From Anaerolineaceae bacterium (GTDB taxonomy: Bacteria > Chloroflexota > Anaerolineae > Aggregatilineales > Phototrophicaceae): DNA of 64,000 nt. Made by a program: the position numbers and the translations under genes. The stretch spans positions 2,052-66,051 of the forward strand of contig PABP01000035.1 of NCBI GenBank assembly GCA_002699585.1, written 5' to 3'. The number at the start of each line of letters is the position of its first letter. Positions within the stretch are counted from its first letter, which is position 1. Under the pieces are notes generated by a model that saw nothing but the letters and a program-made list of their open reading frames with translations, made no database searches and was not told the DNA's origin. This document shows positions 26,002-41,593 of the stretch, one piece after another.

Positions 26002-26685
26002 TTAACGATGCGCATCCAGCTTGTATTCACGATGCAGTCGATAGTGGGTCTCGTCATCATCGCGGACAAGGAGGCATATGCTGTTCACTGTGAGCGGTTC
26101 AGGCGGAAATAACTCAAGTAGGGACTGTTTTGTCGCTTCGGGTTGCGAGCCCGTATAAGGGTACATCAGCGAAAAATGACATTCCCAGCCATCAAGCATA
26201 TAGGGCGTATGAAAGTGCTTAACGCGCATCGCCTTGACCGGATCAGTTTGTTCTGGATCGACATTCGAGCTTGTGCCATAGGGATTGATGCGGGCCGTCA
26301 GCATAGTGTGCAGCATGAGCATCGCCGGGTTTGGCTGATAGTGCAGGACGACAATATTGTCATGCCAAAACGGGATGGGGTCGGCGGCTGGCGTGAGTTC
26401 AAAATGCATCCCCTGTCCAAAACATCCGACCACGACTTCCATCTCGGCTTCGATTGCTGCCAGAGACGCTGGGTCATAATAAAGCGAATAACCCGTCGTC
26501 ATGTGGAAGCCATAGGTTTGTGGCTTCTCAACCCACTGTGGTTCAAACTCTGGCAAAGCAGCCCTGGTAGCATTGTCTTCCGGCAAAAATTGCCCCGTGC
26601 GAACATCATATCCCAGCATTTCCGAGCCGCGCTGGTATAGCAGGCTGTCTGCTGGAGGAATGGTATAAACAGCGAATTTTGCCAT
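26002..26685 (-). CDS. DUF1045 family 2H phosphoesterase of phosphonate loci
   Basis: A 227-aa protein matching the DUF1045 phosphonate-metabolism family. It opens KFAVYTIPPADSLLYQRGSEMLGYDV, close to the family start. The two 2H motifs are YGFHMTTG (His61, Thr63) and CHFSLMYPY (His170, Ser172). 2H enzymes open cyclic phosphates or cleave 2',5'/cyclic phosphodiesters. It is the last gene of the minus-strand phn arm, joined to the preceding EEP gene by a TAATG overlap. A role in processing the cyclic ribosyl phosphate formed by C-P lyase, replacing PhnP, is a reasonable but unproven idea. Confidence 0.75.
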   Translation of the reverse strand: MAKFAVYTIPPADSLLYQRGSEMLGYDVRTGQFLPEDNATRAALPEFEPQWVEKPQTYGFHMTTGYSLYYDPASLAAIEAEMEVVVGCFGQGMHFELTPAADPIPFWHDNIVVLHYQPNPAMLMLHTMLTARINPYGTSSNVDPEQTDPVKAMRVKHFHTPYMLDGWECHFSLMYPYTGSQPEATKQSLLELFPPEPLTVNSICLLVRDDDETHYRLHREYKLDAHR

Positions 26686-27464
26686 TAGGCAAAGTCCAGT
26701 TCGGTGAGGATTGGATAATGGTCACTGGGGTAAATGGGTGGGGCTTCGTCGGTGATGACCTGAAAGCCAGATGTCTGCACAGCGCCTTTGGTCAGTATCC
26801 AGTCGATGCGCAGACCGTTGTATGCAACCTCACGTCCGTGGAAACCATGAAACGTATTGACATCCTCGGTATGCCCTGCTGCCGTATAGCTATCCACATA
26901 GCCAGCTTCCATAAAAACGCCGTAGGCCGCGCTGCTGGGAATGGCGTTAAAATCCGCCATAACAATAACTGGCATCTGACGAGACAAAGGGGCTAACTTC
27001 TCGACCACGACGGCGGCACAGTTGGCACGGGTCTCATCCTGATCCAGCATGTGCGGGAAGTGCGTATTCAGGATGCTGAATTCGCGGTTGGTCTGCATGT
27101 CCAGCAGTGTGACCCAATTGGCCGAACGCGCAAAGGTCGCGCCCCAGCCGATGGACCATACATCGGGCGTTTCACTCAAGTAAAAACCGCCGCTGTTAAC
27201 CAGGGCGTAGCGCTCGCGTCGCCAGAAGATAGGCACATGATGATGGTCATCGGCTTTACGGACCGCTACTGGCCCTAGATTGTAAGCATATTCTGGCAGT
27301 TCATTGGCATAGTCTGCTAAATTGCCGCTCTGGGCTTCCTGGAAGCCGATAATGTCGGGATTGTATTTCTGGATAGTGGCGATGTTCAGATCGCGGCGTT
27401 TGGGCCAGTCGTTATCACCATCATCGTGGAACGACCCGCGTATATTGAAGCTCATCACGCGCAT
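26685..27464 (-). CDS. Endonuclease/exonuclease/phosphatase (EEP) family hydrolase
   Basis: A 259-aa metal-dependent hydrolase of the EEP superfamily. Motifs in order: MSFNIRG, IIGFQEAQ (metal-binding Glu), LNTHFPH, VIVMADFNAIP, and the C-terminal PSDHYPI (catalytic Asp-His). The start at 27464 (AGGAGA upstream) is used; a longer frame would overlap phnL. It sits five bases after phnL and overlaps the DUF1045 gene. EEP enzymes include nucleases, sphingomyelinases and inositol phosphatases, so a cyclic ribose phosphodiesterase role is only inferred from context. Confidence 0.75.
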   Translation of the reverse strand: MRVMSFNIRGSFHDDGDNDWPKRRDLNIATIQKYNPDIIGFQEAQSGNLADYANELPEYAYNLGPVAVRKADDHHHVPIFWRRERYALVNSGGFYLSETPDVWSIGWGATFARSANWVTLLDMQTNREFSILNTHFPHMLDQDETRANCAAVVVEKLAPLSRQMPVIVMADFNAIPSSAAYGVFMEAGYVDSYTAAGHTEDVNTFHGFHGREVAYNGLRIDWILTKGAVQTSGFQVITDEAPPIYPSDHYPILTELDFA

Positions 27465-27468
27465 AAAA

Positions 27469-28179
27469 TTAATCTCCTGGGACGCCGTTGGCATGGACAG
27501 CGATTGGGGCCAGTTCAACCTGATCGTCGATTAAATGCTGCACGTCCTCAGGATGATGGAAAACGCCAATCATAGCAACCCCCTGGTCTTTGAGTTCACC
27601 CAGGCGATTGGCTAACGATTCACGGGTGGCGATATCGAGCGAGGCGGTCGGCTCGTCCAGAAGCAGCAGGCGGCGCGGTGCAACCAGCGCCCGCGACAAA
27701 TTGACTTTCTGCTGTTCGCCGCCGCTGAAGGTAGTCGGGTAGGCATCCCACAATTCGCGCTTGAGGCCGAAGTTCGACAGCAAGTCACGGGCTTGTTGGA
27801 AGGCTTCCGCTTCATCGATACCGGAGCCTAAAAGGGGTTCCGCGACCAGTTCCAGGGCACTGACGCGCGGACGCGGGCGCAAGAACTGGGTCACAAAGCC
27901 GATTTCCTCGTTGCGCAGCGTCAAAATGTCGATGTCAGACGCGCGGGCCAGATCAATCGGACCATAGCTGCTATCAAAGATAGCCTGACCACTGGAGGGC
28001 AAGTAGCTACGGAACAGGCAGCGCAGCAAGGTCGATTTACCGATGCCGTTAGGCCCGCTGACGAGCAAGAACTGTCCGGCCATCAGGTCAAAAGTCAGGT
28101 GCTGGAATACGGGTATCTGACGGCCCAGGTGGTGAATTTCAAAGATTTTACTGTAGTCATTGACCGCTAACAGGGGCAT
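27469..28179 (-). CDS. phnL: Phosphonate C-P lyase system protein PhnL (ABC-type ATPase)
   Basis: A 236-aa ATPase-like subunit. Walker A GPNGIGKSTLLRCL, signature TFSGGEQQKVNLSRAL and Walker B LLLLDEPTASLD are intact, and the N-terminus LAVNDYSKIFEIHHLGRQIPVF is PhnL-like. In E. coli PhnI, with PhnG, PhnH and PhnL, transfers methylphosphonate to ATP. It is not thought to be part of a membrane transporter. 21 bp from phnK. Confidence 0.9.
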   Translation of the reverse strand: MPLLAVNDYSKIFEIHHLGRQIPVFQHLTFDLMAGQFLLVSGPNGIGKSTLLRCLFRSYLPSSGQAIFDSSYGPIDLARASDIDILTLRNEEIGFVTQFLRPRPRVSALELVAEPLLGSGIDEAEAFQQARDLLSNFGLKRELWDAYPTTFSGGEQQKVNLSRALVAPRRLLLLDEPTASLDIATRESLANRLGELKDQGVAMIGVFHHPEDVQHLIDDQVELAPIAVHANGVPGD

Positions 28180-28200: not shown

Positions 28201-29037
28201 TTATAGCTTCGCATGGACAAGCTGCTGCGTGTACGGGTCTTGGGGGTCTTCCAGTATCTGATCGGTCAGGCCCTGCTCCACCACACGGCCATTGCGCATG
28301 ACCATCACACGGTCAGCCAGGGTACGGATGACGCCCAGGTCGTGCGAGACAAGAATCATAGTAATGGTGCGCAGGCGTTGGATGCGCTTGAGCGTATCGA
28401 GCACAGTGGCCTGGATAGAAACATCCAGCCCGGTGGTGGGTTCATCGAGAAGGAGCAGTTCCGGTTGCAGGGCGATGGCCTTCGCCAACTGGACGCGTTG
28501 CTGCATGCCGCCGGAAAGCACACTGGGCGGGTCGTCAACGCGGTCTATCGGGAATTCCGAGGCTTGCAGGCTGGCGTTGCTTTTGCTGCGCAGCGTGCCA
28601 AAGGTCCGTTCACCCGTGATGAGCAGGCGTTCCGCGACGTTGCCGCTGGCGCTGTAGCGCATACGCAGGCCCAGGTGCGGGTTCTGGTAGACGATGCCGA
28701 TATGATGTACACGGACATCGCGCTTATCGAAGCGGTCCAGGTCGAACAGGTTGGTATTGGCCAAGCTGTTGATCTGCAAATGATAAACGCCACCATTTGC
28801 CGGTTCTTCCAAGTTCAGCAGGCGCAAAACAGTCGATTTACCGCTGCCGGACTCGCCAACGATGCCCAGGATTTCGCCAGGGTAGGCGATGACATCCACG
28901 CCATCGACGGCCTTAATCGAGCCATAGTATTTTGTCAGGTTACGGGCGACCACCAGCGGCGGCACCCGGTTGATGATGGGCGCGTCAAGCATCGGGTGAC
29001 TCTTGACGACTGCGCCGGGGTTTGAGGTATCCGTCAT
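28201..29037 (-). CDS. phnK: Phosphonate C-P lyase system protein PhnK (ABC-type ATPase)
   Basis: A 278-aa ATPase-like subunit that in E. coli binds the PhnGHIJ core through PhnJ. Walker A GESGSGKSTVLRLLN, signature LSGGMQQRVQLAKAI, Walker B LLLLDEPTTGLDVS. The start at 29037 follows AAGGAC. It lies 53 bp inside the end of phnJ; starts at 29055 and 28992 are also possible. The N-terminal 30 residues before RNLTKYYGS are not seen in E. coli PhnK. Confidence 0.88.
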   Translation of the reverse strand: MTDTSNPGAVVKSHPMLDAPIINRVPPLVVARNLTKYYGSIKAVDGVDVIAYPGEILGIVGESGSGKSTVLRLLNLEEPANGGVYHLQINSLANTNLFDLDRFDKRDVRVHHIGIVYQNPHLGLRMRYSASGNVAERLLITGERTFGTLRSKSNASLQASEFPIDRVDDPPSVLSGGMQQRVQLAKAIALQPELLLLDEPTTGLDVSIQATVLDTLKRIQRLRTITMILVSHDLGVIRTLADRVMVMRNGRVVEQGLTDQILEDPQDPYTQQLVHAKL

Positions 29038-29950
29038 GGTAGAACTGTCCTTCTGAATCATAGTAAGTGGTGCCGATGGTGACGTCTTCGCCACGCTGAT
29101 GGTTGACGAGTTTTTCCATATAGCCCGTGTCCGATAGCTCGAATACGGAGGAGCCATCGTCCTGCGGCAATTCGTTCATGAATTTATTGCGTTCGCCCGT
29201 GGTGCGGCAGGCCCACTCGCTCTGATCTTCCACCTCGAAGGGTACATCGGTGAATTCCAGCGGGTAGACGTTGGTATAGGGCGGCACAGCGTACAGGCGT
29301 TTTTCGCGGCCTGCGGAGAGCAGCGTCAAATGGGCCGATTGGTGCAGATCGGGGGTATCCCAGCGTGGGATCGGGCTGGGAGCCATGACGAAACGCTCAT
29401 GGACCATGACCGGGTAGCTGGCCCCTTGTATGTAGCGCCCAAAGCGCACCAACTGTTCGTACAGGACAAGCCACATCTGGCCGTAGTCCGCATCGGCATG
29501 CAGGATGCGCGCCTTGGCCATATCGGGTTCCACACGCCGCAGCGGCTCCGGGTTGGGGACTTGCAGCACGAGCGTCTGTCCTTCCCGCAGGATTTCTTCT
29601 GTGATGCGGTGGCGGCTCTGGATGATGGTCGCTTGGTTGGCATCGGTGGTGGTTTCCGCGCCAGACATGCGCGTGATGAAGCGGCGCAAATTGGCGGCAT
29701 TGACGGAGTCATCCGCGCCCTGGTCGATAACTTTGACGGTATCATCCGGCCCAACCAGGCTGAGGGTGACTTGCAGGCCACCCGTCCCCCAACCGCGCGC
29801 GATGGGCAGTTCACGGCTGGCATAAGGGACTTGATAGCCCGGTATGGCAATCCCCTTGAGGATGCGCCGCCGCAATTCGCGCTTGGCGAAGGCATCCAGG
29901 AAGGCATAGCTGTAGCCCTGATTCGGTTGGGCAAGCTCGATTAATGACAT
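28985..29950 (-). CDS. phnJ: PhnJ homologue lacking the Fe-S cluster cysteines
   Basis: A 321-aa homologue of the C-P lyase catalytic subunit. The conserved path is intact: AIPGYQVP (Gly38, equivalent to the glycyl-radical Gly32 of E. coli), GWGTGGLQVT, KVIDQGADD, QSRHRITE, VPNPEPLRRVEP, HERFVMAPSPIPRWD, GREKRLYAVPPYTNV. In E. coli the C-terminal part carries CxxC...C...C (Cys241, 244, 266 for the cluster and Cys272 as thiyl). Here the corresponding text is EWACRTTGERNKF...SSVFELSDTGYMEK. Only Cys248 remains, and it is the only cysteine in the protein. The frame is continuous and flanking residues align, so this is not a sequencing slip. A C-terminal tail of about 35 residues follows. Chemistry may be altered or lost. 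Confidence 0.88.
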   Translation of the reverse strand: MSLIELAQPNQGYSYAFLDAFAKRELRRRILKGIAIPGYQVPYASRELPIARGWGTGGLQVTLSLVGPDDTVKVIDQGADDSVNAANLRRFITRMSGAETTTDANQATIIQSRHRITEEILREGQTLVLQVPNPEPLRRVEPDMAKARILHADADYGQMWLVLYEQLVRFGRYIQGASYPVMVHERFVMAPSPIPRWDTPDLHQSAHLTLLSAGREKRLYAVPPYTNVYPLEFTDVPFEVEDQSEWACRTTGERNKFMNELPQDDGSSVFELSDTGYMEKLVNHQRGEDVTIGTTYYDSEGQFYHDGYLKPRRSRQESPDA

Positions 29951-30068: not shown

Positions 30069-31211
30069 TTACATGGTGTCTTTGGTAACGACCTCGCTCG
30101 TCTTGGATTCCTCGGCTTCAACTTCGCGGTCATCGGCATCTTTGCCCGCTGCGGCAGCCCCGTACAGCACGTTGATGACCTTGCGCATGTTATCCATACC
30201 GCTGCTAAACGTGACGTAGTGCGGCAGCTTGAAGTGAATGCAGAAACCGGATGATTCAATGGGTTCCGTGTGGTAGAGCACGAAATCCTCATTGAGCGCG
30301 GGGTGTGGGTCAGCCTGACTCATTTCCATATCGAGCGTGGCCCCGGCAATCAGCTTGACTTCGTTCCAGCCCATCGTGGCGGTGAAGCCGATTTTGTAGG
30401 TCGATTTGCCTTTGGTGACGACCTCGGCCTGACTGACGCGAACGCGGCCCGCGCTGAAGGGTTCGCCAGTGACTGGGTGCTTGACCTGCACATCGGCATA
30501 GGCCAGTCGCAGTTCGTTGACGGTTGGGTGGATGAAGCCATAGCCGCGCATACTGGCATACCCTAGCGCCAGGACACCGCCCGTATCGGCACGGGCCAGG
30601 GCTTGCAGGCGATGGGCACGCGGGGCTGGCATCATGACCGGGTCGCGGGTCACATCTGGGATGTCAGCGGCGTCGATTTCTTCCGGCACGTCGATAGCGG
30701 CTATCATGCCCTGCTGACGGAGCCAATCAGCGACCAGCGGGTAACGGGTCGCAGCGGGTTTTTCGGCGGCTTCGACCTGCGTGTCTTCGTCGTCTTCGCT
30801 GGCCGCGATGCCATCGAGAATGTTCAAATCCAGAATGCGGTGACTGTAATCCAGCGAAGGGCCGAGCACTTGCCCGCCAGGAATGTCCTTGAAGGCGGCT
30901 GAAATGCGGCGCAGGGTCAGCATATCATCGACGGTGATGGGTTTGGCATAGGCCAGTCGCGGCTGCGTTGAGCGATAGGCACGCAATAGCAAAACCGCTT
31001 CGTACAGGTCGCCGCCGGATTGGGCCAGCGCTAATGCGGCCAGTTCCGGGGCATAGAGTGAGCCTTCGCCCATCACGCGGTCCACCAGATAGGGCATGGT
31101 GTCCATAATTTCCTGGACAAATTCCGGCGTGACGGGTTTCTTGAGCTGGTGATAGAGTTTTTCGGATTCCTGGATGGCTTTTTCGCCACCCTTAGTCGCT
31201 ACATAGGCCAT
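30069..31211 (-). CDS. phnI: Phosphonate C-P lyase subunit PhnI
   Basis: A 380-aa subunit, slightly longer than E. coli PhnI (354). It starts MAYVATKGGEKAIQESEKLYHQLK, the family's N-terminal sequence. Later segments AALALAQSGGDLYEAVLLLRAYRST, YASMRGYGFIHPTVNELR, and CIHFKLPHYVTFSSGMDNMRKV are also PhnI-like. PhnI catalyses replacement of adenine of MgATP by the phosphonate to give ribosyl-phosphonate triphosphate. A charged insert at about 135-150 (ASEDDEDTQVEAAEKPA) and a Glu-rich tail are extra. Confidence 0.92.
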   Translation of the reverse strand: MAYVATKGGEKAIQESEKLYHQLKKPVTPEFVQEIMDTMPYLVDRVMGEGSLYAPELAALALAQSGGDLYEAVLLLRAYRSTQPRLAYAKPITVDDMLTLRRISAAFKDIPGGQVLGPSLDYSHRILDLNILDGIAASEDDEDTQVEAAEKPAATRYPLVADWLRQQGMIAAIDVPEEIDAADIPDVTRDPVMMPAPRAHRLQALARADTGGVLALGYASMRGYGFIHPTVNELRLAYADVQVKHPVTGEPFSAGRVRVSQAEVVTKGKSTYKIGFTATMGWNEVKLIAGATLDMEMSQADPHPALNEDFVLYHTEPIESSGFCIHFKLPHYVTFSSGMDNMRKVINVLYGAAAAGKDADDREVEAEESKTSEVVTKDTM

Positions 31212-31215
31212 TGTG

Positions 31216-31770
31216 TCAGCCTCCTATGGTGATGATGGTGGTTCGTGGTAGGCCAACGATGCTGCTGCCATCGACCAGATAAACATCCCAGCCGCGTGGA
31301 TAGCGATTCTTGCTATCGCGCAGGTCCCAGAATGTGTCTGGAATGCCGCTGACGTGAATCGTCATGGACTGTGCCGGTGGAATACCGGGGCCAGTCAGGG
31401 ACAGCGGTGTGTCACCATCAAGGTTGCAGCCGATAAACAGGGAAGCGCCCTGGTCGGGGTAAAGCAGTGTGCCATTGGTAGCCCGTTCAACGATGTCCAG
31501 CATGTCGGACATTAGCTGCGGATAGAAATGATAGTCGGCACGTTCGGCGGAAACATCGCGGGCGCTGTTGCGGCCCAGATACAGTGCCAGATCGCTATCG
31601 GGTGTATAAAAAGTCGTTTCCAGGTCGAGCAACGTATCAGCAATGGCATGGAACGGATCGCTGTTTTCCGGCAATTCATAGATGCGACCCGGATAACTCA
31701 GCGACCACATCAGCGCCAGAAAGGTAGCACGGGTGAGTTGTTCGTCGAGGGTAAAAGCGGGATGGCTCAT
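31216..31770 (-). CDS. phnH: Phosphonate C-P lyase subunit PhnH
   Basis: A 184-aa core subunit. The family text is visible: RATFLALMWSLSYPGRIYELPE near the N-terminus, LLDLETTFYTPD, DQGASLFIGCNLDGDTPLSLTGPGIP and FWDLRDSKNRYPRGWDVYLVDG. PhnH is needed with PhnG, I and L for the first step. Its ATG overlaps the phnG stop by one base (TGATG). Confidence 0.9.
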   Translation of the reverse strand: MSHPAFTLDEQLTRATFLALMWSLSYPGRIYELPENSDPFHAIADTLLDLETTFYTPDSDLALYLGRNSARDVSAERADYHFYPQLMSDMLDIVERATNGTLLYPDQGASLFIGCNLDGDTPLSLTGPGIPPAQSMTIHVSGIPDTFWDLRDSKNRYPRGWDVYLVDGSSIVGLPRTTIITIGG

Positions 31771-32195
31771 CAGAAGGTTTCCATTTCTACACGGGTGGAT
31801 TCAACCATTTTGAGCAGGTGGTCATCGTCAGCGGCTTGCTGTTGTTGCTGTTCATCGACCAACTGGATGATGGTTGCTGTCTGGTGGCCCAGCGCCAGCG
31901 CGAGGTCGATGACGGCCAGGGCCATCGCCTGCACCACATCGCGCCCGACGACCATGCCGTAGCCTTCCTGCCCCTGGGCTTCGATGTGGGCTTCCGCCAC
32001 TAAAATTTCACCCAGGTGGAAGGTCGTGCCCTGGGCGCTGTCGGTATAGGGCAGCATGACCAGACCAGTCTGATTTTTCAGCACGCGGATGTCGCCCAGT
32101 TCATCCAGGAGCGAATCGGCAAGGGCTTTAACGATAGGAGCCGGGGCTTTGGTCAGGACGCTGAGGGCGTCCGCACGGGAGCGAGTTTGCGGCAT
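31770..32195 (-). CDS. phnG: Phosphonate C-P lyase subunit PhnG
   Basis: A 141-aa first subunit. LVMLPYTDSAQGTTFHLGEILVAEAHI and GYGMVVGRDVVQAMALAVIDLAL are PhnG-like (the HLGE region and the GRD turn are conserved). The start at 32195 follows AAGGATT; an ATG at 32216 lacks a ribosome site. A Gln-rich stretch (QQQQQ) near residue 120 is unusual. It heads the minus-strand arm, downstream of the shared promoter element at 32279-32378. Confidence 0.88.
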   Translation of the reverse strand: MPQTRSRADALSVLTKAPAPIVKALADSLLDELGDIRVLKNQTGLVMLPYTDSAQGTTFHLGEILVAEAHIEAQGQEGYGMVVGRDVVQAMALAVIDLALALGHQTATIIQLVDEQQQQQAADDDHLLKMVESTRVEMETF

Positions 32196-32278
32196 AAATA
32201 ATCCTTTTGGTGGCATGATGCTGCCGACTCATCATCGAGCGCAGCATCAACGTCCATTTGCGAGCATGAATACGGGGC

Positions 32279-32481: not shown

Positions 32482-34380
32482 TTGATCGTGGTCAGACAGA
32501 CTGCACCCACCGACATCCTGCACCATTACCGTACTTTGGCCCATATGCTGCCGAATTACGCAGTGCTTCTATTGGATGCCAAGCTACAGATCATCCTGGC
32601 CAGTGGGCAGTCGCTGCGGTCCATCTTCCAGATTGAACCCGGTCCTAGCAATTATTCCCTGCAAGACATCTGGCCCAACTATTTGTTGGGGTCCACGCTG
32701 GTCAAGCTGCATGATGTCGCCAAAGGCATCCCACAGACGTGGCGCATGCAAACCCTGGAACGCACGCTCGAACTCCATGCCATCCCCATCATCGACCCAG
32801 AATCGGCCATTTTGATGGTGGTGCGCGATGCGACCCAGGAGCAGAAAGAAATCGACCTGCTGCGCAGCGATGCAGCCCGTTATAAAGCCATTGTCGAAGA
32901 AAACCACGAGTTGCAATGCCGCATGACCGTCGATGGGGTGCTGACATTCGCCAATGGAGCCTTATGCCGCCAGAGCCAGCAAACAGCCGACCAGTTAATC
33001 GGCACCTCGTTTTATGGGCTGTGCCTGGAGCGTGATGTGCCATTGCTGCGGCATACCTTCCGCTCGCTATCAGGGACCAAGCGCGACCTAGCTTTGGAAA
33101 TCCGTATGCGCAGCGTGGGTGCGATCCAGCGCTGGGTGCGCTGGTCGTTCCATCCGGTGATGGATGCCGGCGGCAACATCGCGGAAATTCAGGGATCGGG
33201 TTATGACATCACCGACGAGGTACGCGCCCATACCGCCGAAAAGAAGCAGCAAGACCTGATGAAAGCCCTGCGCGACATCGCCTCTGTGCTGAACAGCACG
33301 CTCGACCTCAACGAAGTGCTCGACCACATCATGGACATCATCGATCTGGTGGTCAGCTACGATACGGTCAACGTGATGCTGGTGCAGGATGACATGGCCC
33401 AGGTTGTCAAAGGCAAAGGCTATGAGGCGCATCACATCAAGGGCGTGATGTCGCTGAACTTGCGCATCAAGCGCGTACCCCATCTGCGCTATATGTGGGA
33501 GACACGCAAAGAACTGGTGATTTCTAATGTGCCCCTGGCCAACACACCCGGCCTGGATGTGCCGGAATTGGCCTGGGTACAGAGTTACGTCGGCGCGCCG
33601 ATTGTCTCAGAAGACAAGGTGATCGGATTTTTGAACCTGGAAAGCGTGACGCCGGATTTTTTCAGTGCTGATGATGGCCGCGGGATACGGGCATTTGCTG
33701 ATACATCTGCCCTGGCGATCCGCAATGCGCAACTTTTTGAGCAGGCAAAGGCGGTCGCGGTCATGGAAGAAAAGCAGCGTTTGGCGCGTGAACTGCACGA
33801 TGCCGTCAGCCAAACCCTATTTAGCGCCAATATGATCGCAGATGCTATTCCGCTCATGCTGGAAAAGCACCCGGAAGATGTCCCCAAGCAGTTGCGGCTC
33901 TTCCGGCAGCAGACGCAACTGGCAATGGCTGAACTACGGGCGATGCTGTTCGAGCTGCGGCCCAGCGCCCTGGAAGATGCCGATATTCAAAAGCTGCTGG
34001 AGCAGATGATCCAGGCTATTGGTGGCCGGACGCTGATGAATGTCCAGCTAGAAACGCGCGGCGAAGCCTATCTGGACCTGACGCTGGACGTCAAAGTGGC
34101 GCTGTACCGCATCGCGCAGGAGGGCATCAACAACGCCATCCAACATGCCAGCGCATCGTCGATGCTGATTTCGTTATATGCGACGGAAGACTTCGTAGAG
34201 CTGACGATCAGCGATAACGGGCGCGGCTTTGATTCCAGCAAGCGGTATCACGGCCATATGGGGCTGCACATCATGCAGGAACGCGCCCAGTGGATCGGCG
34301 CGAAATTGACAATCACCAGTCAGGTCGGCCAGGGTACGACGATTGATGTGATTTGGACACGACATGCGCAAAACTCATAA
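32482..34380 (+). CDS. Soluble sensor histidine kinase, PAS-PAS-GAF-HisKA_3
   Basis: A 632-aa cytosolic kinase of the NarL-partner class. The layout: a PAS-like region (about 20-120), a second PAS (130-245, ending in GSGYDITDEV), a GAF domain (265-420) and a HisKA_3 dimerisation domain with ARELHDAVSQTL (phospho-acceptor His439). An HATPase follows with EGINNAIQHA, DNGRGF and GLHIMQERA. No membrane segment is found, so it senses an internal cue. TTG at 32482 is the earliest start; a GTG at 32488 is equally possible, and the ribosome site is poor. It is followed by its response regulator. Confidence 0.85.
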   Translation: MIVVRQTAPTDILHHYRTLAHMLPNYAVLLLDAKLQIILASGQSLRSIFQIEPGPSNYSLQDIWPNYLLGSTLVKLHDVAKGIPQTWRMQTLERTLELHAIPIIDPESAILMVVRDATQEQKEIDLLRSDAARYKAIVEENHELQCRMTVDGVLTFANGALCRQSQQTADQLIGTSFYGLCLERDVPLLRHTFRSLSGTKRDLALEIRMRSVGAIQRWVRWSFHPVMDAGGNIAEIQGSGYDITDEVRAHTAEKKQQDLMKALRDIASVLNSTLDLNEVLDHIMDIIDLVVSYDTVNVMLVQDDMAQVVKGKGYEAHHIKGVMSLNLRIKRVPHLRYMWETRKELVISNVPLANTPGLDVPELAWVQSYVGAPIVSEDKVIGFLNLESVTPDFFSADDGRGIRAFADTSALAIRNAQLFEQAKAVAVMEEKQRLARELHDAVSQTLFSANMIADAIPLMLEKHPEDVPKQLRLFRQQTQLAMAELRAMLFELRPSALEDADIQKLLEQMIQAIGGRTLMNVQLETRGEAYLDLTLDVKVALYRIAQEGINNAIQHASASSMLISLYATEDFVELTISDNGRGFDSSKRYHGHMGLHIMQERAQWIGAKLTITSQVGQGTTIDVIWTRHAQNS

Positions 34381-34445
34381 TACCCCACATCTCTCACCTG
34401 AAAACTCATCTCATCAAAACACCCTAAAACAGGATTACTACGCAT

Positions 34446-35081
34446 ATGGAACCCATTCGAGTCATGCTGGTTGATGATCATGCGATGGTACGGCAGGGAT
34501 TGCAAACCTTTTTGTCCCTGCATGATGACATCGAAGTCGTTGGTACAGCGGCATCCGGGAATGAAGCCGTCGAAGTTTATCCGGAGCTCAAGCCAGATGT
34601 TGTGTTGATGGATCTGATTATGCCCGACCTCAGCGGCGTGGACGTTATCCGCCGGATTGCCGAGCAGGACAGCCACATTTGTGTCATCGCCCTATCGAGC
34701 TTTGGTGAAAAAGAACTGGTACGGGCGGCGTTAGAAGCAGGCGCACGCGGTTATCTGTTAAAGGACATCGGCGGTGATGAACTGGCGGCGGCGGTGCGTA
34801 AAGGTGCAAAGGGCGAACCGGTGCTATCGAACGATGCCACCAGCGCCCTGCTGGATGCCATGAAGCACAGCGTCAAAATATCGCCGTTTGAGCTGAGTGG
34901 CCGCGAACGCGAGGTACTGCGCTATATCGTCGATGGCAGCAGTAATTCCGAGATTGCCTATAAGATCGGCGTCAAGCAATCGACTGTGAAAACGTACGTC
35001 AGCCGCATTTTGGCCAAGCTAGATGTCAACAGCCGTGTGGAAGCGGCCACGATGGCCATCAAATACAAGCTAGTCGAGTAA
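34446..35081 (+). CDS. Response regulator, NarL/FixJ family
   Basis: A 211-aa regulator. Receiver domain with VDDH, phospho-acceptor Asp56 in VLMDLIMPDLSG and KDI, then a LuxR-type HTH (about 145-205: LSGREREVLRYIVDGSSNSEIAYKIGVKQSTVKTYVSRILAKL). It is cognate to the preceding kinase. The pair sits precisely between the two copies of the phn operator, which makes it the natural candidate for binding them; this is inference. Confidence 0.9.
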   Translation: MEPIRVMLVDDHAMVRQGLQTFLSLHDDIEVVGTAASGNEAVEVYPELKPDVVLMDLIMPDLSGVDVIRRIAEQDSHICVIALSSFGEKELVRAALEAGARGYLLKDIGGDELAAAVRKGAKGEPVLSNDATSALLDAMKHSVKISPFELSGREREVLRYIVDGSSNSEIAYKIGVKQSTVKTYVSRILAKLDVNSRVEAATMAIKYKLVE

Positions 35082-35306: not shown

Positions 35307-35972
35307 ATGCAGTACATCGACGTATATCCAAAGAGCGATGAACGCCTCAAAAAATATCGTGACAAGCAACTCGGCGACGACCCTTTTTTCCATGAAGGGG
35401 TTTTCGTGCGCGATAGCCAGGTCGGCGCGTATACCGAGCTGGGGCGCGGTACGTGGCTGAATGAATCCACATTTGGCGATTACAGTTATGCCGCTGGCGA
35501 TGACCAAATTACCTATGCCGACATCGGCAAATTTTGCTCGATTGCCTCACAGGTACGCATCAACCCTGGCAATCATCCCATGTGGCGCGTCACGCAGCAC
35601 CATATGACCTACCGCCGCAAGCAGTACGGCTTCGGTGAAGATGGCACGGAAGTTTTTGAATGGCGGCGCAGCAAGCGCGTGACTATCGGCCATGATGTGT
35701 GGATTGGCCACGGGGCGACAATCATGCCCGGTGTGACCATCGGCACGGGGGCTGTCGTTGGCTCCGGCGCGGTCGTCACCAAAGATGTGGCCCCGTATGC
35801 GATTGTCGGCGGTGTGCCTGCCAAGCTAATCCGCATGCGCTTTTCCGATGAGATCATCGCCCAATTGCTAGGCATCGCCTGGTGGGAGTGGGATCGGCAG
35901 ACGTTGGAAGCCCGTTTCGAGCATCTTTACGACATGGATACCTTCCTCAAGTTGTATGGATCGGCACAATGA
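35307..35972 (+). CDS. Hexapeptide-repeat acyltransferase of phosphonate loci
   Basis: A 221-aa left-handed beta-helix acetyltransferase, close to the family labelled phosphonate metabolism protein, transferase hexapeptide repeat family. It shows STFGDYSYAAGDDQITYADIGKFCSIASQVRINPGNHPM and then RVTIGHDVWIGHGATIMPGVTIGTGAVVGSGAVVTKDVAPYAIVGGVPAK, the hexapeptide rungs. Such genes recur beside C-P lyase genes and may acylate an aminophosphonate. It overlaps the HAD gene by 4 bases (ATGA). Confidence 0.85.
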   Translation: MQYIDVYPKSDERLKKYRDKQLGDDPFFHEGVFVRDSQVGAYTELGRGTWLNESTFGDYSYAAGDDQITYADIGKFCSIASQVRINPGNHPMWRVTQHHMTYRRKQYGFGEDGTEVFEWRRSKRVTIGHDVWIGHGATIMPGVTIGTGAVVGSGAVVTKDVAPYAIVGGVPAKLIRMRFSDEIIAQLLGIAWWEWDRQTLEARFEHLYDMDTFLKLYGSAQ

Positions 35973-36649
35973 CAGCCTTGATCTTCGACATGGACGGCGT
36001 GCTGGTCGAAACGGTTGAGCTGCACTTTGCAGCTTGGCGGCAAATCGCGGCCCAGGTGGGCAAAACCCTGGAACCCCACGATCTAGAAGCCATGCGTGGC
36101 CTACGGCGCGATGACTGCCTACGCCGTATTTTTTCCCCAAGAGAGCTTACAACCTATGATCTGAACACCTACAGCGCCGTCAAAGATGAGCTGTATCTGG
36201 GGGCATTGCGCGATATTGAGCCAGAGGCACTCATCACGCCGGGTACGGTCGCTTTCCTGGAGCAAGCCCGTGAGCGCGGCCTGCGGCTGGGTGTCGCGTC
36301 ATCGAGCGTGAACACTTTCCATGTGCTGGAACACACACAACTTATTGAGCATTTCGACGTGATCGCGGATGGCAACACGGTTGTCCGCAGCAAACCGCAT
36401 CCCGATGTGTTTCTGTGGGTCGCTGGCGCGCTGGGCGTTCCGGCCCACGAGGCGATCATTTTTGAGGATGCCCAGGCGGGGATTGAAGCGGCACAAGCGA
36501 TTGGGGCCTTTGTCGTTGGCATCGGCGAGGGCGAGGCCGCGCGGAAAACAGCCTGGTATGCCCCGCATCTGGCCGATATTGACCTACTGCAACTGATCGA
36601 GCAGGCCAAAAACCGAGAAACAAGTTTGCCTGTAATCAACCCATTATGA
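35969..36649 (+). CDS. HAD superfamily hydrolase, beta-phosphoglucomutase-like
   Basis: A 226-aa hydrolase. Motif I is IFDMDGVLVET (nucleophile Asp, then Asp). Motif II is GVASSS, motif III region SKPHPDVFLW, motif IV IIFEDAQAGIEAA. The helical cap at 15-85 is of the beta-phosphoglucomutase kind; there is no Lys typical of phosphonoacetaldehyde hydrolase that I can place. The chosen ATG overlaps the acyltransferase stop. In this setting it may dephosphorylate a ribose phosphate product of C-P lyase, but the substrate is not known. Confidence 0.8.
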   Translation: MTALIFDMDGVLVETVELHFAAWRQIAAQVGKTLEPHDLEAMRGLRRDDCLRRIFSPRELTTYDLNTYSAVKDELYLGALRDIEPEALITPGTVAFLEQARERGLRLGVASSSVNTFHVLEHTQLIEHFDVIADGNTVVRSKPHPDVFLWVAGALGVPAHEAIIFEDAQAGIEAAQAIGAFVVGIGEGEAARKTAWYAPHLADIDLLQLIEQAKNRETSLPVINPL

Positions 36650-36704: not shown

Positions 36705-37523
36705 GTGTTAGAAATCAAAGATGTTCGGGTGGTGTACCCCAACGGGACAGAAGCCCTCAAATCGGTAACGATGACCGTCCAGACGAATGAGATTGTGGCG
36801 ATCATTGGGCGCTCTGGCGCAGGCAAATCGACCCTGTTGCGGGCTATCAATGGCTTACAACCCGTGACATCCGGCAGCATCACCCTGGATGGGGTCGAAG
36901 TCACCAGCCTGCCGCCTAAAGAACTGCGCAATATCTTCCGGCAAGTGGGCTTCATCTGGCAGGAGCACAATCTGGTCGGGCGGCTGACAGCCAATATGAA
37001 CGTGCTGACAGGTCGGCTGGGTTACAACAGCGGCTTATTAGCGGCGCTGGGTTACTTCAACCGGGAGCATCGGCAGGTAGCTATGCGCAGCCTGGAGCGC
37101 GTCGGGATGCTGCACCGTGCCAAATATCGTGCGGATCGCCTGAGCGGTGGCGAAAAACAGCGCGTCAATATCGCGCGGGCGATTTCCCAGGAGCCAAAGG
37201 TGCTGCTGGCCGATGAACCCGTCGCCAGCCTGGACCCGGAACTGTCATGGACGGTGATGGCCGACCTGGCGCGGGTCGCCCGTGAAGAAGGCGTGCCGAC
37301 GCTCATCAACCTGCACCAAGTTGAACTGGCCAAATCATTTGCCGACCGTCTGGTGGGCATCGCCCAGGGCGTGGTCGTGTTCGATGGCCCGCCGGGGGAC
37401 CTGACCACGGAAGCCGAAGCACGCATCTATCGCTTCGACCGTCCTAACGCCGAGAACAATGGCGCCACCGCTGAAACAGCACTCGATGAAGCCGAAGCCT
37501 ATGAAATGATGGGGGAAGCATAA
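36705..37523 (+). CDS. phnC: Phosphonate ABC transporter ATP-binding protein PhnC
   Basis: A 272-aa ATPase of the phosphonate importer. GTG start at 36705 after AGGAG. Walker A GRSGAGKSTLLRAING, Q-loop VGFIWQEHNLV, signature LSGGEKQRVNIARAI, Walker B VLLADEPVASLDP. PhnC-typical TANMNVLTGRLGYNS is present. Stop and next start overlap (TAATG). Confidence 0.92.
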   Translation: MLEIKDVRVVYPNGTEALKSVTMTVQTNEIVAIIGRSGAGKSTLLRAINGLQPVTSGSITLDGVEVTSLPPKELRNIFRQVGFIWQEHNLVGRLTANMNVLTGRLGYNSGLLAALGYFNREHRQVAMRSLERVGMLHRAKYRADRLSGGEKQRVNIARAISQEPKVLLADEPVASLDPELSWTVMADLARVAREEGVPTLINLHQVELAKSFADRLVGIAQGVVVFDGPPGDLTTEAEARIYRFDRPNAENNGATAETALDEAEAYEMMGEA

Positions 37524-38770
37524 TGCTGGCCAACGCCCAGAACCGAGCTAACAAGAAAGAAACGAAGGTCAAGAACGAAGACCTCGACAGCATCCGCGAG
37601 AGCATTTTACGACCGCTGCCACGCCTGACGATTGGTTTCCTGATCACGATGGCCATTACGCTGGCGGTCCTCGGCTGGAGTGTAGCCGGTACTGAAGCCA
37701 ACCCGGAAAAATTCGTAAATGGCGTCCCGACGCTGGTTGATTTTGTGCTGCGGCTGATGCCACCGGAATTCGAATTTGAAGATGGCAGCGAGCGCATTAT
37801 TTCGCTATCGCCCCTGGAGATACGCGATGTGTCGCGCACGCTCAAGGCCGACCGGGCACGTAAAGCCAATGCCGACGACATCGATGCCATGACCGAGGGG
37901 CAATCCCTGATGTATGTGCTACGGCTGACAGGTGCCGACGATGCCGTCATCATCACACCGGAAGAAGCGCAAAATTATAACAAGGACGATGTCCATACGC
38001 TGAACGCCTATATTTCCGAGCCGGGTTATACGATTGTGCTCGATGATTGGGATAACAGCGTGATTACAGTCGAAGATGGCTATCGCTCGGCCTATTCGGT
38101 GCCCTATCAGGGTGATCAGATGGTGGTCGCCAAGCGTTATGTGCTGGAACCGGGCGAAATGCTGATTGGTTTCCCGGTCATCATCTACTCCATCATTGAA
38201 ACAATCCAGATTGCGATTGTGGGTACGCTGGCCTCCGTGTTGGCATCGATTCCGTTTGCGCTGCTGGCCGCACGCAACGTATCACCCCATCCACTGATTT
38301 ACCAGGGAACGCGCCTGTTCCTCAACCTGATTCGCTCGATCCCGACACTGATTTACGCGCTGATTATGGTGAGCGCCGTCGGCCTGGGACCATTCGCAGG
38401 TGTGCTGGCGCTGGTGATCGGCTCGATTGGTTCGCAGGCCAAATTATTCGCAGAGAGCTTTGAGCAGATCGACCCCAACCAGGTATCAGCGGTGCGGGCA
38501 ACCGGGGCAAACGGCATGCAGGTCTTCAACTTTGCGGTGCTGCCGCAAGCCTTCCCACTATTGGCAACCTACTCGCTGATTACATTCGAGGTCAACGTTC
38601 GCGCTTCCACCATCCTGGGCATCGTCGGCGCGGGTGGTGTGGGCTTCATCATCCAAAAGTATACGGCCCTGTTCCAGTTCCAGCGGTTGATGGGTGCCGT
38701 ACTCATTATCGCCATCCTGGTGACGGTGATTGACCGCGTCAGTGACGCCTTCCGTAAGCGGATTATTTAG
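37523..38770 (+). CDS. phnE: Phosphonate ABC transporter permease PhnE with a ~125-residue insertion
   Basis: A 415-aa permease, much longer than the usual 260-290. After the first helix (about 35-57) and the PhnE text VDFVLRLMPPEFEF (72-86), about 125 residues of soluble character are inserted (86-210, with SLSPLEIRDVSRTLKADRARK and GYTIVLDDWDNSVITVEDGYRS). The transporter core then resumes: PVIIYSIIETIQIAIVGTLASVLASIPFALLAARN, LIRSIPTLIYALI, GSIGSQAKLFAESFEQIDPNQV, STILGIVGAGGVGFII. The insertion lies where a periplasmic loop is expected. Confidence 0.88.
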   Translation: MLANAQNRANKKETKVKNEDLDSIRESILRPLPRLTIGFLITMAITLAVLGWSVAGTEANPEKFVNGVPTLVDFVLRLMPPEFEFEDGSERIISLSPLEIRDVSRTLKADRARKANADDIDAMTEGQSLMYVLRLTGADDAVIITPEEAQNYNKDDVHTLNAYISEPGYTIVLDDWDNSVITVEDGYRSAYSVPYQGDQMVVAKRYVLEPGEMLIGFPVIIYSIIETIQIAIVGTLASVLASIPFALLAARNVSPHPLIYQGTRLFLNLIRSIPTLIYALIMVSAVGLGPFAGVLALVIGSIGSQAKLFAESFEQIDPNQVSAVRATGANGMQVFNFAVLPQAFPLLATYSLITFEVNVRASTILGIVGAGGVGFIIQKYTALFQFQRLMGAVLIIAILVTVIDRVSDAFRKRII

Positions 38771-38786
38771 TCGTAACTACATGTTT

Positions 38787-38814
38787 GTAGTGGCAAGGCA
38801 TGCCTTGCCACTAC
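38787..38814. repeat. 28-bp perfect palindrome between phnE and phnD
   Basis: GTAGTGGCAAGGCA followed directly by its exact reverse complement. It shares the GGCAAGGCA/TGCCTTGCC core with the element at 5027-5045. No T-run follows. Lying between permease and binding-protein genes, it could protect mRNA or shape relative expression. Confidence 0.7.
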
Positions 38815-38910
38815 TACGGAATATTTAGTGCTTGTTACAAGGGGCTTTATGGGGAAGGGAACCCAGAGCCAATTAAGAATCACTTTCAACATATGAGAGG
38901 ATTGTACAAA

Positions 38911-39975
38911 ATGAAGTTGATCGTTCGTTTGATAGCTGTCGTGGCTTTAGCCGCTGTTTTGGGTGCGACACTGGTCGCCCAGGATGATGTAGACCGTACT
39001 GACTGGCCAGAAGTCTTCAGCTTTGGTCGTTTCGCCGGTGATGACAGCTCCGAAGCCCTGCTCAACGCTGAACCCATTCGCGCTTACCTGGAAGCCGAAC
39101 TGGGCATGCCCGTGACCGTCAATGTCGGCAGCACCTACACCGCCGTCATCGCCGCCATGGCCGCTGGCCAGGTCGATGCTATGGAAGTTGGCCCTTTCAG
39201 CTTCGTCATCGCTGAACGCGAAGCCAATGCCGAGCCGATTGCCGTTGGCGCCAGCGAAAGCTCCCTGGATGCTGGCGAAGTCGCGGTTTATGATCCCGAA
39301 ATTCGCCCCTTCTACTACAGCGTTTTCGTCACCAAGAAGGGCAATGTCAACCCGGTTACGGGCAACCCGATCCGCACCCTGGCCGACCTGGAAGGCATCG
39401 ACTACGCTTTCGTTGACCCGGCTTCCACCAGTGGCCGCAACGCACCTGTGATGCGCCTCATCAACGAAATCGACGGCCTGGAAACCCCTGGTGATGTCGA
39501 TGAATGGCTGAACCCAATCTTCGCTGGCAGCCACCCTAGCGCCATGCTGGCCCTCATCAACGGCGACGTTCTGGCTGGCTCTACCTACGAAGGCAACCTG
39601 ATCAACCAGCGCACAGAAGGCTTGGCTGAGGTCTGCGGTTTTGAAGACGACCAGACCGGCGTCACCCTGACGCAGGACACGCTTGACGAAATTTATGACG
39701 ACTGCCCCGATGGCAGCCTGGTTGTGATCGCCCAGACCGCACCCATCCCGAACACACCAGTTGCTATCCGCGCTGACCTGCCGCAAAGCTTCAAGGATGC
39801 GGTCCAGGATGCGCTGCTGAGCATCAAGGACAAGCCGGAAGTGCTGGCTGAAATTGGTCGCTGGTATGTTGATCCGTCTACCGATGACGTGCTGGCTGAC
39901 GAACTTGGCCTGGAAACACTCAGCGACTTCTACGATGTCGTGCGTGACATCGCAGCTGTGACCGCCGAGCAGTAA
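38911..39975 (+). CDS. phnD: Phosphonate ABC transporter substrate-binding protein PhnD
   Basis: A 354-aa secreted binding protein. Signal peptide MKLIVRLIAVVALAAVLGATLVAQ. PhnD-like text: GMPVTVNVGSTYTAVIAAMAAGQVDAMEVGPFSFVIA, YYSVFVTKKG, FVDPASTSGRNAPVMRL, and the C-terminal VIAQTAPIPNTPVAI. ATG 38911 is preceded by AGAGGA and opens the signal peptide; an earlier in-frame start would run into the palindrome. Binds phosphonate (or phosphite) outside the cell for PhnCE. Confidence 0.92.
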   Translation: MKLIVRLIAVVALAAVLGATLVAQDDVDRTDWPEVFSFGRFAGDDSSEALLNAEPIRAYLEAELGMPVTVNVGSTYTAVIAAMAAGQVDAMEVGPFSFVIAEREANAEPIAVGASESSLDAGEVAVYDPEIRPFYYSVFVTKKGNVNPVTGNPIRTLADLEGIDYAFVDPASTSGRNAPVMRLINEIDGLETPGDVDEWLNPIFAGSHPSAMLALINGDVLAGSTYEGNLINQRTEGLAEVCGFEDDQTGVTLTQDTLDEIYDDCPDGSLVVIAQTAPIPNTPVAIRADLPQSFKDAVQDALLSIKDKPEVLAEIGRWYVDPSTDDVLADELGLETLSDFYDVVRDIAAVTAEQ

Positions 39976-40372: not shown

Positions 40373-41593
40373 ATGTGGCTCAGTGATCTAAAAATCGTGA
40401 CGCCGAATGCGGTGATCGAACGCGGTTCGCTCTTAATCGAAGAAGGCAAAATCGCGAAAATCATCGAAGGTCCGGCCCCCATCAACGTGCCCAGTTTGCA
40501 GGGGCTGACGTTGATCCCCGGCATGATTGACCTGCACGGCGATATGCTGGAACGCGATGTGCAGCCACGGCCTTCGGCACGCTTCCCAACCGAGCTTGGC
40601 CTGTTTGAACTGGACAAGCGGTTGGCTGGGGCAGGTATCACCACCGCTTTCTGTGCGATCAGCTTTGCATGGCGCAATAATGACTTGCGTTCCCAGGAGA
40701 GCGCGACCGAGATGATTGAGACAGTCAACCGCATGAACAGCCAGACGCTGGTCGATATGCGAGTACATGGCCGCTTTGAGGTCAATAACACGGAAACCGC
40801 GCCCATCCTCAAAGGCTTGCTGGAACGCGGCTTGCTGCAACTGGTTTCGATCATGGACCATACGCCCGGTCAGGGGCAGTACAAGGACGTGGATCGTTAT
40901 TTGAACTTCATGCATCGCTGGCTGGGGATGGACATCAGCGTACTGGGCACATCCAGAGAAGATATTTTAGAGCGCATGAAGTCCAATATCCTGGAATATG
41001 CCGAAGCCCCACGCGATTGGGAGGTCATTGCTGAGGTGTTGAAGGTCGCCATCGAATATGGCATCCCGGTATCGTCACACGACGATGACACCGCCGACAA
41101 AGTCAGCTTGCAGGCCAAGATGGGCGTGAGCATCAGCGAGTTCCCGGTCAGCTTGGAAGCGGCCCAGGCAGCGCACGAGCATGGCATGTGGATTGTCATG
41201 GGTGCTCCCAACGCGTATCGCGGCCAATCGACTTCGAACAACCTGAGTGCAATGGATGCCATCGAGGCCGGATTGGTCGATATTTTGGCGACAGATTACT
41301 ACCCAGCAGCGATGTTACATTCTGCATTCAAATTGGCTAAACAGGGCACGATGCCACTTAATGAGAGCGTCAAACTGGTCAGCACCAACGCCGCCAGAGC
41401 AATGCACATGGATGACTTGGGTAGCATCGAAGTGGGCAAGGCCGCAGATATGGTCATCGTGCATGAGGCTGATGATTTCCCCCGAGTCCATGGTACGATT
41501 CGGGCAGGGCATCCCATCTACTGGGATAATCATCTCGCTTCGTTATCACAGCTCAATCAGCTATTTCAACTGGCATCAGCCTCTATAACTTAG
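40373..41593 (+). CDS. phnM: Alpha-D-ribose 1-methylphosphonate 5-triphosphate diphosphatase PhnM
   Basis: A 406-aa amidohydrolase-fold enzyme that removes pyrophosphate from the ribosyl-phosphonate triphosphate made by PhnI. PhnM text: LTLIPGMIDLHGDMLERDVQPRPSARFP (metal-binding His-x-Asp), AGITTAFCAISFAW, LMDHTPGQGQYKD, SSHDDDTADKV, STNAARAMHMDDLGSIEVGKAADMVIV. A terminator and the dispersed repeat lie between it and phnD. Five bases after its stop comes the end of the ParA-like remnant. Confidence 0.92.
   Translation: MWLSDLKIVTPNAVIERGSLLIEEGKIAKIIEGPAPINVPSLQGLTLIPGMIDLHGDMLERDVQPRPSARFPTELGLFELDKRLAGAGITTAFCAISFAWRNNDLRSQESATEMIETVNRMNSQTLVDMRVHGRFEVNNTETAPILKGLLERGLLQLVSIMDHTPGQGQYKDVDRYLNFMHRWLGMDISVLGTSREDILERMKSNILEYAEAPRDWEVIAEVLKVAIEYGIPVSSHDDDTADKVSLQAKMGVSISEFPVSLEAAQAAHEHGMWIVMGAPNAYRGQSTSNNLSAMDAIEAGLVDILATDYYPAAMLHSAFKLAKQGTMPLNESVKLVSTNAARAMHMDDLGSIEVGKAADMVIVHEADDFPRVHGTIRAGHPIYWDNHLASLSQLNQLFQLASASIT

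Follow-up and report, generated by a model that had tools for sequence, protein, structure and literature searches.

The DNA analysed here (the window) is a stretch of 64,000 nucleotides from an Anaerolineaceae bacterium (contig PABP01000035.1, positions 2,052 to 66,051). It carries a phn locus in two arms, with genes and features as follows.

26002-26685, minus strand: possible 2H phosphoesterase (2_5_RNA_ligase2, a weak match of 23.8 bits against a cut-off of 27; the phn-operon profile TIGR03223 matches over its first quarter only, 51.1 bits against a cut-off of 248.95)
26685-27518, minus strand: accessory protein of the endonuclease/exonuclease/phosphatase family (EEP; PF03372, 68.8 bits)
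27469-28179, minus strand: phnL, ABC ATPase, assigned by position and best match (TIGR02324, 228.7 bits, below the cut-off of 256.3)
28201-28992, minus strand: phnK, ABC ATPase, assigned by its position after phnJ and best match (TIGR02323, 223 bits, below the cut-off of 302.85); the start ATG at 28992 is inferred and overlaps the phnJ stop, while the listed reading frame begins at 29157
28985-29950, minus strand: phnJ, cysteine-poor form, 321 amino acids (PF06007, 409.2 bits)
30069-31211, minus strand: phnI (PF05861, 377.6 bits)
31216-31770, minus strand: phnH (PF05845, 95 bits)
31770-32216, minus strand: phnG (PF06754, 81.1 bits)
32482-35081, plus strand: putative histidine kinase and response regulator, read from the open reading frames, between the two phn arms
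35307-35972, plus strand: hexapeptide transferase of phn operons (TIGR03308, 277 bits, above cut-off)
35957-36649, plus strand: HAD hydrolase of the beta-phosphoglucomutase family, start inferred (TIGR02009, 167.8 bits, above cut-off)
36705-37523, plus strand: phnC, importer ATPase (TIGR02315, 290.4 bits, above cut-off)
37523-38770, plus strand: phnE, importer permease (TIGR01097, 258.3 bits, above cut-off)
38800-39975, plus strand: phnD-type binding protein (PF12974, 144.9 bits; TIGR01098 above its cut-off, TIGR03431 PhnD below)
40373-41593, plus strand: phnM, triphosphate diphosphatase of the pathway (NF011990, 385.1 bits, above cut-off)

The window thus holds phnGHI, phnKL and phnM, with PhnK and PhnL scoring under the NCBIfam cut-offs, and the complete phn locus claimed in a preliminary description of this DNA was confirmed by the family matches. 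Homologues of the putative kinase and regulator lie at the equivalent position in a related locus (L050), and the pair is possibly the regulator of the phn locus.

The window PhnJ matches PF06007 over profile positions 2-272 of 275, at 409.2 bits against a cut-off of 25, and this whole-domain match places it in the PhnJ family. Its translation contains a single cysteine in 321 residues, as had been described. In E. coli PhnJ, regarded as a radical [4Fe-4S] enzyme, Cys241, Cys244 and Cys266 serve as cluster ligands and Cys272 as the proposed thiyl residue; two reports hold that the enzyme needs SAM, its cluster and Cys272 (PMC9947105, PMC11978286). The preliminary description had equated the sole cysteine with Cys241, given the other three as Thr, Leu and Met, and reported the glycyl-radical residue as kept. 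These assignments were reproduced by a phmmer alignment to E. coli PhnJ (4xb6_D, 284.7 bits), which pairs Cys248 with Cys241, Thr251 with Cys244, Leu272 with Cys266 and Met278 with Cys272, by the codons, and by column mapping, which pairs Gly38 with Gly32. The corresponding positions in the window are listed below.

28985-29230, minus strand: part of phnJ from residue 241, the C-terminal domain, which holds the four-Cys site in E. coli
29209-29207, minus strand: Cys248 codon TGC, read directly
29198-29200, minus strand: Thr251 codon
29137-29135, minus strand: Leu272 codon CTA, read directly
29119-29117, minus strand: Met278 codon ATG, read directly
29837-29839, minus strand: Gly38 codon (E. 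coli Gly32)

Homology continues in frame beyond the four-Cys site. A second, canonical phnJ elsewhere in the genome had been named as a finding that would make this copy redundant, and none was present in the host assembly (6.7 Mb, 96.17% complete), where PF06007 has one match only. NCBIfam gave no name to the cysteine-poor PhnJ, nor to E. coli PhnJ used as a control, so this library does not discriminate between the two. A C-terminal extension of the window protein (28985-29080) with a TYYDxxGxFY-like motif occurs in most of its cysteine-poor relatives and is absent from the copy in Thermus thermophilus HB8.

An alignment for relatives with the same losses showed that the window protein is not a single odd case. 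We aligned 107 distinct PhnJ sequences of at least 230 residues and dropped one split by a frameshift (L088), which left 106. All four cysteines are present in 41 of these (canonical PhnJ), while 65 lack the cysteines at positions 244, 266 and 272 (the variants), and there are no intermediates. In the variants, position 241 is Cys in 54 and Asp in 11, position 244 is Thr in 54 and Ser in 11, position 266 is Leu, Ile, Val, Met or Ala, and position 272 can be any residue. A quick maximum-likelihood tree, calculated with the C-terminal domain cut, placed the 65 variants on one side of a branch with an SH-aLRT of 100. This tree requires one change for the split from canonical PhnJ and carries a long-branch warning for L147. 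Among 351 variant pairs with dS < 1.2, the median dN/dS was 0.27, the highest value was 0.65 and none reached 1; the 11 pairs with dS < 0.5 gave 0.02-0.65. By these comparisons, variant phnJ is under purifying selection. We rejected gene decay and faults in sequencing or assembly as the source of the losses because 65 distinct sequences share them at the same three positions, the frames are open and selection is purifying; we regard their probability as negligible. Judged from the sequences compared, the cysteine-poor PhnJ is not an artefact but a large clade, which belongs to the PhnJ family and falls outside the E. coli definition of a radical [4Fe-4S] enzyme: Cys244, Cys266 and Cys272 are kept in none of the 65 variants. 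For the C-P step in these proteins, a [4Fe-4S] cluster bound to PhnJ and a thiyl radical on Cys272 are therefore unavailable. In our literature search, with most subscription papers outside its reach, no report of a PhnJ without these cysteines was found, in line with the unexpectedness noted earlier.

In the E. coli structures (PMC9947105), the cluster site and the glycyl radical site are ~30 Å apart, and a ligand resembling the product occupies a separate, zinc-containing site. Arg107, Gln124, His108 and the loop 47-50 of PhnJ hold this ligand, which was modelled as PRcP. The zinc on His328 and His333 of PhnI also holds PRcP, and His219 joins in the open state (PMC9947105). This site between PhnI and PhnJ is kept in the variants. 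Arg107, His108, Gln124 and Gly47-Trp48-Gly49-Thr50 are identical in all 65 variant PhnJ sequences, as is Gly32 of the glycyl radical site. In variant PhnI, His328 and His333 are present in 66 of 66 sequences and His219 in 65, with one gap. The window PhnI retains both zinc ligands as His326 and His331, and Cys324 lies two residues ahead of His326. Outside the C-terminal domain of PhnJ, 54 of the 60 canonical positions conserved at ≥95% stay in at least 90% of the variants; inside it, one of six strongly conserved canonical positions is kept.

Some residues around the site have changed with the loss of the cysteines. PhnJ Phe37, in a loop that lines the pocket, is Tyr in 62 of 65 variants. PhnI has gained Trp279 (66/66) and, two residues before the zinc ligand His328, Cys326 (62/66 variants versus 1/33 canonical sequences). 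These changes were chosen post hoc from the positions that divide the two groups (18 in PhnJ and 16 in PhnI). The Thermus branch of four sequences (L125, L131, L135, L150), the first to split among the variants in the quick tree, lacks PhnI Cys326 and, except in L131, PhnJ Tyr37. The two residues are therefore not a general replacement for the lost cysteines, and Cys326 was rejected as a new thiyl residue on the same ground.

The AlphaFold model, built with 42 variant sequences, was of modest quality overall (mean pLDDT 66.4). Residues 241-290 were predicted at pLDDT 82-96, and residues 1-50 at 37-47, including the Gly38 region at 37-42. Model residues 28-284 were aligned with residues 13-278 of E. 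coli PhnJ (7z19_D) with a Z score of 22.3 and 3.4 Å over 238 aligned residues. In the superposition made by Foldseek itself the fit was loose (TM 0.63-0.65, rmsd 7.3-7.7), and Foldseek matches ranked under PhnJ and PhnH were disregarded. The model has the PhnJ fold, and its C-terminal domain is predicted to keep that fold without the metal ligands.

The variants are found in phnGHIJKLM operons. Of 51 named variant loci, 39 have the whole set. Eleven of the 12 incomplete ones reach a contig end at the missing gene, and the remaining one (L050) stops at phnD, beyond which phnM lies in the window. PhnN and DUF1045, which act on the product side, were matched beside four of 11 operons of the alphaproteobacterial type (L151, L152, L191 and L195, the last with weak matches). 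Their presence, like the kept PRcP site, is indirect support for C-P cleavage. With the same seeds, PhnN, PhnP and DUF1045 gave no match in the 51 named loci, and none of them was found near the other seven alphaproteobacterial-type operons; PhnP adjoined none of the variant operons examined. If PhnJ were a scaffold that breaks no C-P bond, ribosyl phosphonates would be the end product or would be passed to another enzyme. The loss of all catalytic cysteines from a retained fold fits such a role, which the preliminary description had considered as a structural PhnJ. However, the residues that bind PRcP are kept without exception and product-side genes accompany four operons, so that we consider this explanation very unlikely.

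The preliminary description had also considered a cluster supplied by a partner. Its statement that the thiyl cysteine and the cluster ligands are gone stands, and a cluster from another Phn subunit is unlikely given the few cysteines in the complex: in T. thermophilus HB5008 (L135) PhnG, H, I, J, K and L contain 0, 0, 0, 1, 1 and 1. HB8 shares with this strain the accessions of PhnG, H, I and J, and one further variant PhnJ (L100) contains no cysteine at all. A related explanation is that the radical is loaded onto Gly32 by the product of a gene outside the locus, either an activating enzyme or an iron-sulfur protein, with another thiol in the place of Cys272. The invariance of Gly32 is what this would predict; the scarcity of cysteines speaks against it, as does, more weakly because many contigs are short, the finding that gene families other than phn each occur in at most six of 53 clustered variant loci. 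We regard it as improbable.

Several neighbours were rejected as specific partners or substitutes. The hexapeptide transferase is present in 36 of 51 loci but also in canonical operons, and the EEP gene in two of 51 and also in a canonical operon. A 2H gene of the window type was found in one of 51 loci, and a supposed 2H gene near some Chloroflexia loci had no Pfam or NCBIfam match and was left aside. Canonical PhnK has a CxxC insert in its N-terminal part, mostly CPxCGTVxAC-like and ahead of the Walker A region, in 26 of 33 rows (L101-L116, L119-L123, L144-L146, L153 and L156), and no variant row has it. A tie between this insert and the cluster was dismissed, since PhnK of E. coli, Sinorhizobium, Nostoc and Acidovorax lacks it despite a canonical PhnJ.

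The variant hosts belong to Chloroflexota, Deinococcota and Alphaproteobacteria. In the family of the window, PhnJ was found in 19 of 98 genomes; 18 copies are full-length, all of them variant, and one is truncated. In its phylum, 37 of 400 genomes have PhnJ, and all were read: 12 variant and 25 canonical. For the phylum to which a Meiothermus MAG belongs, the corresponding numbers are 14 of 111 genomes, with 11 variant and three canonical. A scan of named species genomes with three short patterns of the variant C-terminal domain, which is not exhaustive, found at least 51 loci, chiefly in Anaerolineae, Chloroflexia (Oscillochloris, Ca. Chloroploca) and Deinococcota, with some in MAGs under other labels. 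These MAGs are labelled Bacteroidetes (L055), Pleurocapsa (L067), Gammaproteobacteria (L070), Verrucomicrobia (L088) and Gracilibacteria (L096); the labels of L055 and L067 are probably wrong. Among 215 plasmid records with PhnJ, 16 are 60-80% identical to the window protein, and all ten of these that were examined are variant. They come from T. thermophilus HB8 (pVV8), HB5008 and SNM1-1, two Rhizobium, Sinorhizobium sp. B11, Mesorhizobium, Nitratireductor, Microvirga and Haematobacter. In a Pseudomonadota sample, 83 of 398 genomes match PhnJ, and among the best 30 loci five are variant, including G500 (titled Gammaproteobacteria); the other four resemble the alphaproteobacterial plasmid copies.

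Variant and canonical PhnJ coexist in some of these hosts. Four of the five variant genomes in the Pseudomonadota sample also contain a canonical PhnJ, which was read in all four, and the Haematobacter plasmid carries both kinds of operon together. The coexistence hints at a distinct job for the variant. It also counts in favour of a different net reaction, in which the usual ribosyl intermediates are formed from substrates that can be cleaved without a radical, such as those with stabilised-carbanion leaving groups, and the radical machinery was dropped because such substrates do not need it. The changes near the His site (PhnJ Tyr37 and PhnI Cys326) also agree with an altered reaction. However, none of the searched Chloroflexota and Deinococcota genomes contains both kinds, and whole-genome searches of twelve hosts of variant loci gave one PhnJ each (one split across two frames). 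Moreover, no recurring operon gene in the 53 clustered loci indicates a substrate, and Gly32 is kept throughout although it is given no radical role, unless it is structural. A changed reaction is the most serious rival, and we consider it possible but less probable than an unchanged pathway.

Our tentatively favoured explanation, which we hold with slightly less than even confidence, is a cluster-free ("C-minus") form of C-P lyase that retains the net pathway and carries out a putative cleavage chemistry at the His site. PhnCDE would import the phosphonate, and PhnI with PhnG, PhnH and PhnL would couple it to ATP-derived ribose. PhnM would then trim the ribosyl intermediate. The carbon part would be lost at the His site, which contains zinc and lies between PhnI and PhnJ, and the resulting PRcP would be salvaged to PRPP. 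The kept product site, the full operons, the purifying selection and the predicted fold count for a cluster-free C-P lyase. The reported need of the E. coli enzyme for SAM, the cluster and Cys272 counts against cluster-free cleavage. Other points against the favoured explanation are the absence of PhnJ Tyr37 and PhnI Cys326 from the Thermus branch, the coexistence with canonical copies, the absence of product-side genes from the 51 named loci and seven of the 11 operons, and the modest quality of the model with its low pLDDT around Gly38. It is rather unlikely, in our estimation, that a branch of C-P lyases breaks unactivated C-P bonds at the PhnI-PhnJ zinc site without a cluster, a SAM radical or a thiyl cysteine in the complex. 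If one does, cleavage in E. coli itself might likewise take place somewhere other than the canonical four-Cys site.

The variants share with E. coli C-P lyase the gene set, the PhnJ fold, Gly32 and the residues of the PhnI-PhnJ zinc site. They differ from it in the three lost cysteines, in the Asp that replaces Cys241 in 11 sequences, in the gained Cys326 and Trp279 of PhnI and, in most cases, in the C-terminal extension of PhnJ. Zinc-ribbon ribosomal proteins occur as C+ and C- pairs, with a four-Cys metal site in one and a metal-free fold in the other. The four-Cys metal site of PhnJ likewise appears to have been swapped wholesale; the metal of the C+ ribosomal proteins is structural, whereas a catalytic [4Fe-4S] cluster is attributed to the PhnJ site. 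The phn operon on plasmid pVV8 of T. thermophilus HB8 was reported by Ohtani et al. 2012, as cited in PMC5529391. This operon is itself of the cluster-free form. HB8 PhnJ (L138; PF06007 at 415.8 bits) is identical to that of HB5008 and, unlike most variants, lacks Tyr37; its PhnI lacks Cys326.

The mechanism of C-P bond cleavage by C-P lyase is unsettled, and the variant clade bears on whether the cluster site is needed. A clade that lacks the cluster ligands but retains the product site allows the two roles to be told apart and amounts to a natural experiment, which is open to testing because the clade includes rhizobia and those T. thermophilus HB8 stocks that carry pVV8; this plasmid has disappeared from many stocks kept in laboratories (PMC7694296). 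When phnJ is used as a marker for methane formation from methylphosphonate, two kinds of protein are mixed.

Other phn loci also stood out. The 1.4 Mb plasmid of Microvirga sp. VF16 (NZ_CP069355.1) has nine PF06007 matches, two of which were read, one variant (L152) and one canonical (L188). A third kind of phn locus is present on a Proteus mirabilis plasmid (L147), in a Dysgonomonadaceae member (L148) and in Agrobacterium vitis (L155). It combines phnGHIJKL with a small hypothetical gene and an ABC importer of the iron type, with phnM not in the stretch, and its PhnJ keeps the four cysteines but has Gln at position 108. On a plasmid of Nostoc sp. ATCC 53789 (L143), a canonical phn operon contains genes for an HD-domain phosphonate oxygenase and for a protein like fosfomycin thiol transferase.
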